Positions 17,078 to 29,178 of a stretch of 64,000 nucleotides of DNA are shown here, piece by piece. The notes below the pieces were generated by a model. It searched no databases, was not told where the DNA came from, and saw only the letters and a list, made by a program, of their open reading frames with translations. The stretch lies in contig NZ_JALKAL010000002.1 of the NCBI RefSeq assembly GCF_023015765.1, positions 345,778 through 409,777 of the forward strand. The letters run 5' to 3'. The DNA is from Ornithinimicrobium sp. F0845. Lineage in GTDB: Bacteria > Actinomycetota > Actinomycetes > Actinomycetales > Dermatophilaceae. The translations under genes were made by a program, and so were the position numbers. Positions within the stretch are counted from its first letter, which is position 1, and every line of letters begins with the position of its first letter.

Positions 17078-17934
17078 GCGCCCTCGCGCTCCTGCTCATC
17101 GCCGTCGGCCTGGCCGACCTGCTCTCCGCCCGTGACTGGGCCGACACCGGGCTCGGGCAGCGCGTGGGCACGACCCTGGGACTAGCCTCGATCGCTGCCC
17201 TGGCCATCCTGGCCGACCTGGACACCTGGGGTGACCTGCTCCTGCTGGCCATCGCCGGCGCCACCACCGGGACCTGGGTCGTGCTGACCCGACGTGCAGT
17301 CGAGACCGATCGTGGGGAGGGACTGGCGCTGGGTGCCCTCTCGCTCGGCGTCGCGCTGACGCTCCTGCTCAGCGGGTGGTCCTCGGAGGCTGGTGGGGCG
17401 CTCTCCCGGTGGCTGGACTGGACCGGTCTGGGCCCGCTCACGACGGCCGACCCGACCCGGTTCCTGCTCCTGGCCGGGCTCGTGCTGATCCAGCTGTCGA
17501 CCGGCAACATCGTGGTCCGGCTGGTGCTCGCCCACACCGGCGCGCTGAACCCGCTGGGCGAGCCACAGCCCTCCGACCGGCTCCGCGGGGGGCGACTCCT
17601 CGGGCCGATGGAGCGGGTGTTCATCCTCGGTCTGGGGCTCGCCGGTCAGGTGACGGCCGCCAGCATCGTCATCGCCGCCAAGGGCCTGATCCGTTGGCCC
17701 GAGCTGCAGCGCGCGAGTCGTGACAGCGAGCGCTGGGAGGCCGCGCACAGCGACACCACGGGCCGGGAGACGACGGGCAGCGACACCGCGGGCCGGGAGA
17801 CGACGGGCAGCGCGCAGGATCCCGCCACGCAGCGGGCGGCACGCATCGACCAGGTGACCGAGTACTTCCTCATCGGCAGTTTCGTGAGCTGGCTGATCGC
17901 GCTCGCCGCGCTGGCCGTGTCCCGCCTCGCCTGA
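17074..17934 (+). CDS. integral membrane protein paired with SatD
   Basis: I recognise this only as the membrane partner commonly found after satD. It has about seven hydrophobic segments, starting at once with ALALLLIAVGLADLL and ending in a terminal helix (FLIGSFVSWLIALAALAVSRLA). A cytosolic or periplasmic insert near residues 225-255 contains two near-identical 10-aa units (DTTGRETTGS, DTAGRETTGS), encoded by a 30-bp tandem DNA repeat. The GTG start overlaps the satD stop (GTGA). The function is unknown. Confidence 0.75.
   Translation: MSALALLLIAVGLADLLSARDWADTGLGQRVGTTLGLASIAALAILADLDTWGDLLLLAIAGATTGTWVVLTRRAVETDRGEGLALGALSLGVALTLLLSGWSSEAGGALSRWLDWTGLGPLTTADPTRFLLLAGLVLIQLSTGNIVVRLVLAHTGALNPLGEPQPSDRLRGGRLLGPMERVFILGLGLAGQVTAASIVIAAKGLIRWPELQRASRDSERWEAAHSDTTGRETTGSDTAGRETTGSAQDPATQRAARIDQVTEYFLIGSFVSWLIALAALAVSRLA
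17752..17811 (+). repeat. 30-bp tandem duplication inside a gene
   Basis: There are two adjacent 30-bp units, 17752-17781 and 17782-17811, differing at one base. They encode the repeated decapeptide D-T-[TA]-G-R-E-T-T-G-S in the SatD-linked membrane protein. The 30-bp length keeps the frame, so copy number could vary between strains. Confidence 0.85.
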
Positions 17935-25842: not shown

Positions 25843-27168
25843 ATGGACGACACCAGCAACACAGGAAAGGCCGCCGGCACCGCGGGCGGCTCGGACAAGG
25901 ACGAGTTCCGCGCTCCCGCGCGCAACAAGTCCGTGCACACCGCCCTGATCTCGGGCAACACCTTCCGCGCCAAGGCCGTGCAGTACACCGTGATCGATGG
26001 CGACGCGATCTTCGAGGGCGACATCCTGCTCGGCACCCACGAGGAGGTTCAGCACAGCAGCGCCCAGCTGGCCGCCGAGGCCCGCGGCGACCTCGGGACG
26101 GCGGGTGTGCTGATCAGCGGTGACCAGTTCCGCTGGCCGAACTGCGTCGTGCCCTACGACATCGACGCCGACCTGCCCGACCAGCAGCGGGTCACCGACG
26201 CCATCAACCACTGGCAGCGCAACACCCGCTTCACCTTCGTGCTGCGCACCACGGCCAACGCGGGCGACTACCCGGACTGGGTGCGCTTCCAGCCCGGCGG
26301 CGGGTGCTCGGCGCACGTCGGGCGTCGCGGCGGCATGCAGAACGTCAACCTGGCAGCCGGGTGCACCCTCGGCAACACGATCCACGAGATCGGGCACGCC
26401 GTCGGCTTCTGGCACGAGCAGTCCCGCGAGGACCGCGACGCGTTCGTGACGATCAACTGGGCGAACATCCAGGCCGGCACGGAGCACAACTTCAACCAGC
26501 ACATCTCCGACGGTGAGGACGTCGGTGCCTACGACTACGGCTCGATCATGCACTACCCGCGCAACGCGTTCGGCCGGAGCGGCGCCGAGACCATCACGCC
26601 GACAGACCCCACAGCGGTGATCGGTCAGCGCAACGGCCTGAGCGCCGGCGACATCGCCGCGGCCAACTCGATGTGCCCGGACCCCGGCACCGGGGTCGAG
26701 ACCGTCAAGGAGCAGATCGAGACCATCAAGGAGCAGTCCCCGGAGACCATCAAGGAGCAGTCGCCGGAGACGATCAAGGAGCGCTACCCCGAGACCGTGA
26801 AGGAGCACTTCCCGGAGACCATCAAGGAGCGCTACCCCGAAACGGTCAAGGAACAGTCGCCGGAGACCATCAAGGAGCGCTACCCCGAGACCATCAAGGA
26901 ACGCATCCCCGAGACGATCAAGGAGCGCATCGAGACCATCGTCGAGGGCATCGGCCTCCCCGGCCCCGGGCCTGTCGTCCAACCCGGCCTCCAGCCGCGG
27001 GCGGGCGACCAGGTGCCGTTCGCCGTGGCCACGCCCCACGCGGGAGCAGCTGGCGCCCAGCCCGGCTGGTCGGGCGAGGAGGACCTGGCCGCCCGCGTCG
27101 CCCAGCTCGAGGCCATCGTCAGCGAGCTGGTGGCCGCCCACGACGCGGGTGCGCAGGGCATGTCGTGA
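25843..27168 (+). CDS. astacin-like (M12A) metalloprotease with repetitive ETIKE tail
   Basis: The zinc protease signature HExxHxxGxxH is complete (HEIGHAVGFWHEQSRED, near residue 181), with the Met-turn SIMHY about 55 residues later. No signal peptide is visible, unusual for astacins. Residues about 286-367 are 11 consecutive units of the form E-T-[IV]-K-E-x-x-P, followed by a Gly/Pro linker and a short coiled coil (LAARVAQLEAIVSELVAAH). The GTG of the next gene, an ATP-grasp peptide ligase, overlaps this stop codon, so the pair is translationally coupled. Dense Thr, Lys and Glu in a repeated tail next to such a ligase resembles multi-core graspetide precursors; this is my inference. The ATG has a moderate ribosome binding site. 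Confidence 0.85.
   Translation: MDDTSNTGKAAGTAGGSDKDEFRAPARNKSVHTALISGNTFRAKAVQYTVIDGDAIFEGDILLGTHEEVQHSSAQLAAEARGDLGTAGVLISGDQFRWPNCVVPYDIDADLPDQQRVTDAINHWQRNTRFTFVLRTTANAGDYPDWVRFQPGGGCSAHVGRRGGMQNVNLAAGCTLGNTIHEIGHAVGFWHEQSREDRDAFVTINWANIQAGTEHNFNQHISDGEDVGAYDYGSIMHYPRNAFGRSGAETITPTDPTAVIGQRNGLSAGDIAAANSMCPDPGTGVETVKEQIETIKEQSPETIKEQSPETIKERYPETVKEHFPETIKERYPETVKEQSPETIKERYPETIKERIPETIKERIETIVEGIGLPGPGPVVQPGLQPRAGDQVPFAVATPHAGAAGAQPGWSGEEDLAARVAQLEAIVSELVAAHDAGAQGMS
26695..26945 (+). repeat. 24-bp coding repeats (ETIKERYP units)
   Basis: About 10-11 imperfect 24-bp units encode ETVKEQI, ETIKEQSP (x2), ETIKERYP, ETVKEHFP, ETIKERYP, ETVKEQSP, ETIKERYP, ETIKERIP, ETIKERI and ETIVEGI. Thr, Glu and mostly Lys are kept in every unit while the last positions (QS, RY, HF, RI) vary. 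Synonymous codons differ between units (ATC/GTC/GTG, AAG), so the array is not a recent duplication and looks maintained by selection. Confidence 0.9.
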
Positions 27169-28166
27169 TCGTCGTCATCTCCCACCCCGCGGACCTGCAC
27201 GCGCAGCGCGTCACCGACGCGCTGCGTGCGCGGGGTCGGGAGAACTTCCTGCTCGACCTGGCCGACCTGCCCGCCTCGGCGACCCTGAGCATCGACCCGG
27301 CGGGGCCGGGGAAGGTGACCCTCCGTCATACGAGCGGGGTGGTCGACCTGTCCTCGGCCACCGCCGTCTGGTGGCGCCGGCCCCAGCACGTGGTGCTCGA
27401 CGCCATCGGCGACGCGGACGCGCGCGGGTTCGCCTACGGCGAGTGGCACGAGGCGATCCACGGTGCCTACCAGCTGATGCCGTGCCCGTGGATGAACCCG
27501 CTGCACGCCGACGAGATCGCCTCGCACAAGGCGCTGCAGCTCACCGTCGCACCCCAGGTGGGGCTCCGGGTGCCCGAGACGCTGATGACCTCCGACGCGG
27601 ACGCGGCACGGGAGTTCATCGCGCGGCAGGAGGCGCAGGGGCGCCGAGCCGTCTACAAGATCTTCGCCGCCACCCACCAGGTCTGGCGGGAGACCCGGCT
27701 GGTGGGTGCGGCCGACCTGGCGCACCTGCCGAGCCTGCACCTGGCACCGGTGATCTTCCAGGAGTATGTGCCGGCCGTCGCGGACATCAGGGTCACCCTC
27801 GTCGGGGAGCGGGTCTTCGCGATGTCGATCTCCGGCGGACCCGAGGTCGACTTCCGGCTGGGCCTCGGGCAGGCACGGACCGGCCCGTTCGACCTGCCCG
27901 AGCCGGTGGTCGCGGCTCTGCGGGCGCTGATGACGCGCTTCGGCCTGGTCTACGGCGCGGTCGACCTGCGGCTCACCGCCGAGGGCGAGCTGGTCTTCCT
28001 CGAGGTCAACCCGGCCGGGGAGTTCCTCTTCGTGGAGTCGGGCGCGGGTCATCCGGTGACCGACGCCGTGGCGGACTGGCTCAGCGACCCGGTGACGGCA
28101 GCTCTCGGCACGCGGGCGGGCGAGGGCCTCGCCGCACGCGTCCCGGCGGCTGGCTCCGTCGGCTGA
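27165..28166 (+). CDS. ATP-grasp ligase of the MvdD/graspetide-maturase type
   Basis: This 333-aa ATP-grasp enzyme forms amide or ester bonds through an acyl phosphate. Visible features are an N-terminal Rossmann-like start (IVVISHPADLHAQRV), AVWWRRP, the ATP-binding Lys in AVYKIFAA (about residue 162), the hinge FQEYVPAVADIRVTLVG, and the metal-binding end LVFLEVNPAGEFLFVE. The NPxGxxLxxE-like ending and the WWRRP block are typical of microviridin/graspetide ligases rather than RimK or glutathione synthetase. GTG 27165 overlaps the upstream metalloprotease stop (GTGA). The most economical reading is that it modifies the repetitive tail of that protein; substrate and bond type are unproven. 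Confidence 0.85.
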   Translation: MIVVISHPADLHAQRVTDALRARGRENFLLDLADLPASATLSIDPAGPGKVTLRHTSGVVDLSSATAVWWRRPQHVVLDAIGDADARGFAYGEWHEAIHGAYQLMPCPWMNPLHADEIASHKALQLTVAPQVGLRVPETLMTSDADAAREFIARQEAQGRRAVYKIFAATHQVWRETRLVGAADLAHLPSLHLAPVIFQEYVPAVADIRVTLVGERVFAMSISGGPEVDFRLGLGQARTGPFDLPEPVVAALRALMTRFGLVYGAVDLRLTAEGELVFLEVNPAGEFLFVESGAGHPVTDAVADWLSDPVTAALGTRAGEGLAARVPAAGSVG

Positions 28167-28175
28167 CCGGGCCGG

Positions 28176-28532
28176 TCAGACCGGCACGACCTCGACCAGC
28201 ACCGTCTCCGACTGCAGCGGGTAGGCCTGGACCGTGATCCAGTCGCCGGCGGTGACGTGCTCATGGTCACCGGTCGCCACCCGCGCCCAGACGGTCAGCC
28301 CGCGCGGGTCGACATCGTCGGGCACGGTGAGGTCGACCGAGGCGATGACCTGGCGACCCGGGACGTCCCCTTGTGTCGCAGGCGCTGTCCCCGAGCCGGT
28401 CACCGTCCTCGCCGTGGAGACGGTTGTGGAGGCCACATCCAGCAGCGAGGTGTCCCGGATCTCCACGACGACGGGGGTGCCGGCCGGGGGCTCGTCCGGA
28501 CCGGCGGCGGCGACCAGCACGTTCACGTCCAT
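28176..28532 (-). CDS. hypothetical beta-rich protein (YbaY/YscW-like)
   Basis: The 118-aa product reads as a beta-sandwich: VVVEIRDTSLLDVASTTV, QVIASVDLTVPDDVDPRGLTVWARV, and the terminal LVEVVPV. The pattern resembles YbaY/YscW-type domains, but I am not certain. There is no signal peptide from this start. It is convergent with the ATP-grasp gene (9-nt gap), so it is not in that operon, though proximity to the accessory pair may matter. ATG 28532 is preferred over upstream in-frame starts, which overlap the GNAT promoter. Confidence 0.6.
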   Translation of the reverse strand: MDVNVLVAAAGPDEPPAGTPVVVEIRDTSLLDVASTTVSTARTVTGSGTAPATQGDVPGRQVIASVDLTVPDDVDPRGLTVWARVATGDHEHVTAGDWITVQAYPLQSETVLVEVVPV

Positions 28533-28614
28533 GACCCGACGATAAACCTGTGGGCCGGGCCGTGGAGGCCGGGCGGGCACGGCTCCCCGGTTGGCCATGT
28601 TGGACACTGGGGTG

Positions 28615-29178
28615 GTGACCACACACCACCACGAGCCCGGACCCCTCGCCGACGCCAGTGTCCGCACCGGACGCGTCAGCGACGCGCCGGCGGTGGGTCT
28701 CGTGCAGGCGACCGTCTGGCGCGACGCCTTTGCGGACGCCGTCCCGCCCGAGGTCCTCGAGACCTTCGAGGGACCTGCCTTCGCCTCGGTCTGGCGGCGG
28801 TCGCTGCAGGACCCGCCGACCCCGTTGCACCGGCTGCTGGTCGCGTGCGCAGGGCCTCAGGTCGTCGGCTTCGCCGCGATCGGCCCGGCCGAGGTCACCG
28901 ACGAGTCCGTGACGGCCACCGACGGCGAGCTCTTCGTGCTCGCGGTGCACCCCGACGCGCGCCGCGACGGACACGGGTCGCGACTGCTCAACGCCGCCGC
29001 AGACACGCTCCGGGCGGGAGACCGCTCCGGGCTGCTCACCTGGCTCCCGGCAGGCGACGAGGACTCGCGGGCCTTCACCGACGCCGCCGGCCTGGCACCG
29101 GACGGCGCCTGGCGCGAGCGCGTGGTCGGCCCGGGGGGCGAGACGGTCCGCGAGATCCGCGTGCGGGCCGACCTGTGA
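28615..29178 (+). CDS. GNAT-family N-acetyltransferase
   Basis: The acetyl-CoA binding region is LFVLAVHPDARRDGHGSRLLNAA (motif A, R/Q-x2-G-x-G/A). An N-terminal segment reads VRTGRVSDAPAVGLVQATVWRDAF. The acceptor is unknown. GTG 28615 is chosen because GACACT (28603-28608) lies 6 nt before it; ATG 28591 is an alternative. The stop overlaps the azlC start (GTGA), so the acetyltransferase and the AzlCD exporter form one operon, suggesting a shared theme of amino-acid detoxification or export. Confidence 0.85.
   Translation: MTTHHHEPGPLADASVRTGRVSDAPAVGLVQATVWRDAFADAVPPEVLETFEGPAFASVWRRSLQDPPTPLHRLLVACAGPQVVGFAAIGPAEVTDESVTATDGELFVLAVHPDARRDGHGSRLLNAAADTLRAGDRSGLLTWLPAGDEDSRAFTDAAGLAPDGAWRERVVGPGGETVREIRVRADL

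Follow-up and report, generated by a model that had tools for sequence, protein, structure and literature searches.

A repeat-tailed astacin protease of Ornithinimicrobium as a probable protein-sized graspetide precursor paired with an ATP-grasp ligase

We examined 64,000 nucleotides of the genome of Ornithinimicrobium sp. F0845 (contig NZ_JALKAL010000002.1, positions 345,778 to 409,777; this whole stretch is called the window) and focused on two overlapping genes, one encoding an astacin protease with a repetitive C-terminal tail and the other an ATP-grasp ligase of the graspetide-synthetase kind. Judged by sequence comparison, the protease is itself quite probably a graspetide precursor of protein size that naturally carries its recognition element at the C terminus, its tail being cross-linked by the adjoining ligase. 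An original prediction made from the window alone had proposed this role for the enzyme, with the tail as a multi-core substrate, and comparison across genomes lends it strong support. Under the proposed mechanism, the two genes would act as a self-contained pair for protein modification. The ligase would recognize a C-terminal follower (the motif PFAVATPHAG and the segment behind it), activate Glu carboxylates of the ETIKE tail with ATP, and join them to side chains N-terminal of the Glu, mainly Lys and perhaps Thr. This would leave the cytosolic protease otherwise intact but bearing a series of small macrolactam or macrolactone rings. Cross-links of this kind presumably form at the residues proposed below, and the tail may then remain on the enzyme, where it would serve as a rigid, protease-resistant, or regulatory element.

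The protease gene (positions 25843 to 27168, plus strand, as are all parts of the protein described here) encodes 441 amino acids and was classified by its Pfam match and a simple hydropathy test. Its astacin domain (residues 97 to 277, positions 26131 to 26673; Pfam PF01400, 163.3 bits) holds a zinc motif of the HExxHxxGxxH form (HEIGHAVGFWH, residues 181 to 191) and the Met-turn SIMHY (residues 234 to 238), which make the enzyme an astacin (M12A). Residues H181, E182, H185, H191, M236, H237, and Y238 were invariant in all 25 tailed astacins of an alignment. The N terminus has no hydrophobic stretch and thus no signal peptide by the simple hydropathy test, so the complete astacin protease without a signal peptide described in the original prediction was borne out. 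The window astacin also scores 316 bits against NCBIfam model NF045530 for LegP, a translocated Dot/Icm effector (cut-off of 300), and 31 of 80 tailed proteins match this model at an E value of 0.001 or better. For an actinobacterial astacin, the LegP name probably reaches too far.

The tail (residues 286 to 368, positions 26698 to 26946), which we propose to be the multi-core substrate, was delimited by unit count and tandem repeats. Its 11 units of the form ET[IV]KExxP begin at residues 286, 293, 301, and so on to 364, with a spacing of 7 to 8 residues, and Tandem Repeats Finder scored the array at up to 285. The predicted number of units was therefore correct, with a reservation about the last: 10 units read ET[IV]KE, and the final one reads ETIVE, without Lys. 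Synonymous divergence among the core codons, also predicted, is present but modest. Thr is encoded by ACC (8 units) or ACG (3 units), the first Glu by GAG (10) or GAA (1), the second Glu by GAG (9) or GAA (2), and Lys only by AAG. Behind the tail lie the follower motif PFAVATPHAG (residues 392 to 401, positions 27016 to 27045; F393 is invariant), the proposed ligase recognition element, and a C-terminal segment (residues 402 to 441, positions 27046 to 27165) that is probably helical by eye. The protein departs from the usual form of graspetide precursors, small peptides with an N-terminal leader, in that it comprises 441 residues with an enzyme domain and its motif lies C-terminal of the tail.

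The ligase gene (positions 27165 to 28166, plus strand; 333 amino acids, GTG start) shares the bases GTGA with the protease stop, and both this overlap and the WWRRP and VNPAGEFLFVE blocks of the ATP-grasp protein agree with the original prediction. Matches to PF21068, TIGR04187, and ligase profiles identify it as a graspetide synthetase of the MvdC/MvdD kind. It carries the MvdD pre-ATP-grasp domain (PF21068, 35.7 bits; cut-off of 27), and its best NCBIfam score is to TIGR04187 (215.7 bits, under the cut-off of 350). Ligase profile A1 aligned over nearly the full length with the solved graspetide ligases 5ig9 (E value of 6.8e-64), 5ig8 (4.1e-62), 9bou, 7m4s, and 7mgv, all at 1.6e-50 or better. 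All 39 aligned homologues share residues K122, K165, D267, E280, and N282, and we take these to have catalytic-type roles. A search of the window's own genome gave a single ligase match.

The pairing of the two genes recurs in near relatives. The astacin query matched 8 of 97 related genomes, and the ligase query matched 12 of them, at 13 places. Six of the eight astacin-matching relatives (G000, G008, G023, G091, G050, and G047) have an adjoining tailed astacin and ligase, and seven of the 13 ligase places come after a tailed enzyme (L001 to L007). The remaining two astacins (L020 and L021) have different C-terminal repeats, were counted as tail-less, and have no ligase in their flanks. The six related tails contain 5 to 10 ETxKE units each, with variation in the three residues between units; because E, T, and the final E are fixed by the search pattern, the number of Lys residues alone is an independent observation. 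Pairs of tailed enzyme and ligase occur in 4 of the 31 genomes from the window's genus. In G010, of the same genus, the ligase stands behind an M43-type protease with a tail that runs TLKFRDDPGSLKFRDDP and the motif PFVLSTGHH, and locus L023 is a record of Ornithinimicrobium cavernae. An astacin search across the phylum scored only four candidates in each genome; of 396 genomes, just two had a match, one of them the window's own, and counts were therefore taken from other searches.

For the wide survey, genome contigs were scanned once with the ligase profile, and the best 80 of 194 relatives were kept; these 80 loci span eight phyla. By pattern, a PF motif occurs in a large open reading frame (ORF) just upstream of the ligase at 77 of the 80 loci, while L054 has TF and contig ends truncate L025 and L099. 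At 75 loci, the two genes overlap (19 loci) or are separated by 0 to 20 bases (25 loci), 21 to 60 bases (21 loci), or 61 to 150 bases (10 loci), with distances taken up to where the match starts. We aligned 80 upstream proteins, 75 from survey loci plus those of the window, L004, L005, L018, and L019. The survey loci outside the alignment are L025, L058, and L099 (contig ends), L034 (which carries a tailed astacin), and L067 (which carries an unknown domain with the motif); the fragment at L058 shows tail and motif. A Burkholderia stagnalis plasmid supplied one further M43-type case beyond the survey set. Precursor-like repeats, such as LEITTKTDVQMESDD, were seen upstream of more distant ligases in L110 (2276 to 2485) and L111 (1960 to 2484), on Sinorhizobium and Croceicoccus plasmids.

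The enzymes in front of the tails belong to unrelated families. The 80 front ends form clusters of 31 astacins, 26 trypsin-like proteins, 13 M43 proteins, 4 unknowns, 2 tyrosinases, 2 S8 proteins, 1 M10 protein, and 1 tail-only protein, named from Pfam totals and motifs, as the Pfam output consisted of totals only (Astacin, 31; Trypsin_2, 25; M43, 13; Trypsin, 11; M10, 4; Tyrosinase, 2; S8, 2). On the ligase tree (93 rows; a quick build with no bootstraps and several long branches), enzyme class switches at least 10 times among seven classes. In one strongly supported group, with a Shimodaira-Hasegawa-like approximate likelihood ratio (SH-aLRT) of 100, L005 (an astacin) falls together with three M43 proteins (L101, L071, and L097), and the tails of all four are of the PK..K[DE] type. 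On this comparative evidence, it appears well supported that the traveling unit consists of tail, follower, and ligase and is carried by many enzymes, which is wider than first proposed. Five loci (L067, L070, L082, L087, and L095) have a small N-terminal domain instead of an enzyme, with no Pfam match in the two that were scanned (L070 and L067).

The follower is the common element of these proteins. The Phe of the PF motif (F393) is the sole invariant column in the 80 aligned upstream proteins, even though their front ends are unrelated; 79 have P-F and one has T-F. Only in L070 and L082, and partly in L067, is the motif N-terminal of the repeats, in a leader-like position. Follower similarity tracks ligase similarity in pairs of proteins from different enzyme classes (rho = 0.51; 1,219 of 1,711 pairs among 59 proteins), a value reached by 0 of 1,000 within-class shuffles (mean of 0.07, maximum of 0.34). 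The correlation between tail and ligase is lower (0.33; 0 of 1,000 shuffles as high). Over all pairs, it is 0.54 between ligase and follower and only 0.19 between enzyme and follower. Linked descent can add to the follower-ligase correlation.

We analyzed tail composition in 59 nonredundant tails out of 75, with L070, L082, L087, L095, and L075 set aside. Lys makes up 7.3% of the tails versus 1.5% of the enzyme parts, and Pro makes up 11.3% versus 5.4%, whereas Arg is at 4.8% versus 5.4%. Lys or Thr at 4 to 5 residues before Asp/Glu outnumbers the same residues after it in 55 of the 59 tails, with no tail showing the opposite and four ties. The arrangement of graspetide precursors, with Ser, Thr, or Lys at short spacing N-terminal of Asp/Glu, is accordingly found in 55 of 59 tails, though not by Thr alone. 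Taken singly, Lys shows this direction in 46 tails versus 5 and Ser in 27 versus 14, while the direction is opposite for Arg (6 versus 26) and Asn/Gln (13 versus 32). The order of nucleophile before acid agrees with the rule in PMC12291112 and with the KxxxD pattern of corallotide in PMC13097080. Salt bridges along a helix could also produce the Lys-acid spacing, but the single direction, the abundance of Pro, and the behavior of Arg make this less likely. In the window tail, a link from Lys to the Glu at +5 (K-ERYP-E) would be the likeliest, and one from Thr to the Glu at +3 is possible. The repeat units of L005 have no Thr, units of other tails are largely without Lys, and some tails have Thr-Asp where Lys otherwise stands. 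What is conserved across homologues is thus "Lys or Thr, then Asp/Glu" and not, as the original prediction had expected, T, K, and E each.

As controls, all nine tail-less astacins examined (L020, L021, L102, and L113 to L118) lack a ligase in flanks of 1.5 to 2.5 kilobases or to the contig end; among plasmid astacin records, six of 17 were examined, the rest being one from Legionella and otherwise Sinorhizobium and Thermus. A DNA pattern for the motif gave three matches in 295 genomes of one genus (Streptomyces, as inferred) and none when reversed. All three are tailed astacins with an adjoining ligase; L104 and L105 are identical to survey loci L044 and L100, and L103 is new. The pattern TLKFxDD gave 38 matches in 13 of 18 genomes of surveyed loci, versus 2 for the reversed control. 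By coordinates compared by hand, 37 of the 38 lie at known loci, and a ligase was present in 30 of 30 stretches checked. The 38th match has no ligase nearby; its host protein is S-adenosylhomocysteinase by eye, and it looks like chance. Homologous tails without a neighboring ATP-grasp gene, which the original prediction had named as evidence that would count against it, were therefore absent from the places tested. No ORF of 30 to 160 amino acids with a PF-type motif occurs near the window operon as a separate small precursor, and the four small motif-bearing ORFs at the 80 loci look by eye like chance matches. A phage or defense origin was also considered and rejected: PADLOC had no match for the protease, the ligase, or the convergent neighbor. 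The motif pattern found one stretch in viral contigs (L106; a 61-amino-acid frame without tail or enzyme domain), and the ligase had two distant matches in phage records (29.1% and 24.7% identity).

Several observations weigh against a dedicated pairing of tail and ligase or loosen its details. Six of the 13 ligase places in the 97 relatives (L008 to L013), all weaker matches, have no tailed neighbor. Two of these, L008 and L013, sit on long branches inside the tail-linked part of the ligase tree, and this set is therefore no clean clade. L087 and L095 have the motif with no evident repeat tail. Thr alone shows no direction bias (22 versus 22 tails), and offsets 4 to 5 were picked after the offset profile had been seen, which makes the P value of 5.6e-17 for the bias optimistic. 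In the window, Lys-Glu spacings of +5 or +1 and a Thr-Glu spacing of +3 fit several link patterns. Finally, the window ligase scores under the cut-offs of all named subfamilies (in addition to TIGR04187, TIGR04184 at 166.6 bits versus 475 and TIGR04185 at 161.2 bits versus 425).

Other roles for tail and ligase have to be weighed as well. The protease might cut off its own cross-linked tail and release a classical small graspetide, the protease domain being a built-in maturation enzyme. Proteases of five families account for 73 of the 80 front ends, and the catalytic residues of tailed astacins are invariant, both of which would suit this idea, but the two tyrosinases and the four small unknown domains bear the same module and could not act in this way in cis. 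Moreover, no transporter family recurs beside the pair among neighbor clusters present in at least four loci. Because tyrosinases and the unknown domain carry the tail too, self-processing, offered as an alternative in the original prediction, is unsupported as a general rule, and we regard it as rather unlikely. Control of the protease by its own tail, as an inhibitor or zymogen lock, would resemble the action of microviridin- and plesiocin-kind graspetides, which inhibit serine proteases (PMC13097080 and PMC8939145). Such intracellular control would be useful, since the tailed proteases are apparently without signal peptides. We nevertheless consider it unlikely, as the module is also found on metalloproteases and tyrosinases, which one inhibitor type would hardly fit.

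The tail could also be a mere charged, flexible, or helical stalk, with the ligase acting on another substrate. K/E-rich repeats are common as spacers, but a charged stalk would allow Arg in place of Lys, and this swap is not seen. The one-way order of Lys and acid, the Pro content of 11.3%, the Thr-Asp that replaces Lys in some tails, and the covariation of follower and ligase likewise argue against a stalk, as do the nine of nine tail-less astacins without a flanking ligase and the lack of another precursor candidate near the operon; we think it very unlikely. RimK belongs to a related ATP-grasp family (TIGR00768, 32.8 bits), so the ligase might add amino acids to the protein rather than link side chains. 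It matches graspetide ligases much better (215.7 bits, together with the solved microviridin-type ligases), the MvdD pre-ATP-grasp domain included, which makes this extremely improbable. Cross-linking of the tail by the adjoining ligase thus stays the preferred reading.

Known systems offer partial parallels. The microviridin pathway (precursor MdnA/MvdE; ligases MdnB/MdnC, that is, MvdC/MvdD) uses the same ligase family and fold by profile. A microviridin precursor on a Nostoc plasmid has the leader motif PFFARFL and TLKFPSD in a repeated core; this core is close to the TLKFRDD of many tails studied here, and the leader also begins with PF. In contrast to the small precursor, N-terminal leader, and two ligases of microviridin, we find one ligase and a protein-sized substrate in which the motif mostly follows the core. 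Corallotide (graspetide group 15, CorA/CorB; PMC13097080) has a large repetitive substrate, as here, and its TIGR04187 ligase joins Lys to Asp as isopeptides in KxxxD repeats, a spacing shared with many of our tails. Unlike the enzyme-borne tails, however, the corallotide precursor as described there has no enzyme domain, the pathway has an added hydroxylase, and the group is reported to be confined to Corallococcus. In an engineered fuscimiditide variant (PMC13003496), a leader moved C-terminal of the core still guides its ligase; the order of core and recognition sequence is the same here and would be natural.

Makarova et al. (2022; PMC8939145) describe ATP-grasp ligases of branches 7 and 8 beside diverse peptidases, for which they could predict no precursor, and propose that these peptidases cut other proteins. 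The gene pair studied here is similar in that its ligases lie beside several unrelated peptidase families with no separate precursor, but here the peptidases themselves carry the proposed substrate. Branch 7, in which a YscW homologue is frequent, is likely the ligase group of this analysis. The window has a peptidase neighbor and no small motif-bearing ORF at the operon; its YscW match is weak and under the cut-off. At L011 and L012, a truncated ATP-grasp-like ORF (by eye) lies just upstream of the full ligase, as in branch 8. Graspetide group 32 of PMC13097080 likewise has diverse neighboring protease families, taken there as possible maturation or resistance enzymes. Since that survey used loci with software-called precursors, its supplements may already mark some of the tails. 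Our literature searches returned no description pairing graspetides with astacins, graspetides with tyrosinases, or ATP-grasp enzymes with astacins.

A hydrophobic N terminus was found in only 1 of the 80 upstream proteins by the simple hydropathy test (L070, probably with a wrong start), and the tailed enzymes therefore look cytosolic. Enzyme families of these kinds are usually secreted. Downstream of the pair lies a convergent gene (positions 28176 to 28667, minus strand) that is weakly YscW-like (PF09619, E value of 0.0062; 17.3 bits, under the cut-off of 22.6); its product might inhibit the protease or act as its chaperone. By eye, a similar gene occurs in seven astacin-type loci (L022, L023, L024, L027, L028, L029, and L030). 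In L113, on a Pararhizobium plasmid, a YbaY-family lipoprotein gene adjoins a tail-less astacin, with no ligase. Among neighbor families found in at least four loci, only one set of four loci adjoins the pair on the same strand. Seven M43-type loci (L062, L069, L071, L077, L092, L097, and L101) have a nonadjacent gene for a small, weakly lipocalin-like protein (107 amino acids in L077; E value of 0.039), which is perhaps a cognate protease inhibitor. Elsewhere in the window, a 30-base tandem repeat of 2.6 copies (positions 17735 to 17812) is separate from the protease-ligase finding.

The pair would offer a substrate for the ligases that Makarova et al. (PMC8939145) found beside peptidases without a precursor. 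A 2026 survey (PMC13097080) takes neighboring proteases as maturation or resistance enzymes. If the proteases are the precursors, the open precursor question becomes testable. Nature would then have a recognition element placed at the C terminus, graspetides of protein size would form a class, and the tails could serve as modular tags with which to cross-link proteins. More broadly, we see about an even chance that bacteria of at least eight phyla use graspetide chemistry on whole proteins. A portable module made up of repeat tail, C-terminal recognition motif, and ligase would cross-link the ends of cytosolic proteases and oxidases, the enzyme would stay whole and stapled in its mature form rather than give up a peptide, and the tails would supply the substrates that the ATP-grasp branches linked to peptidases have lacked.

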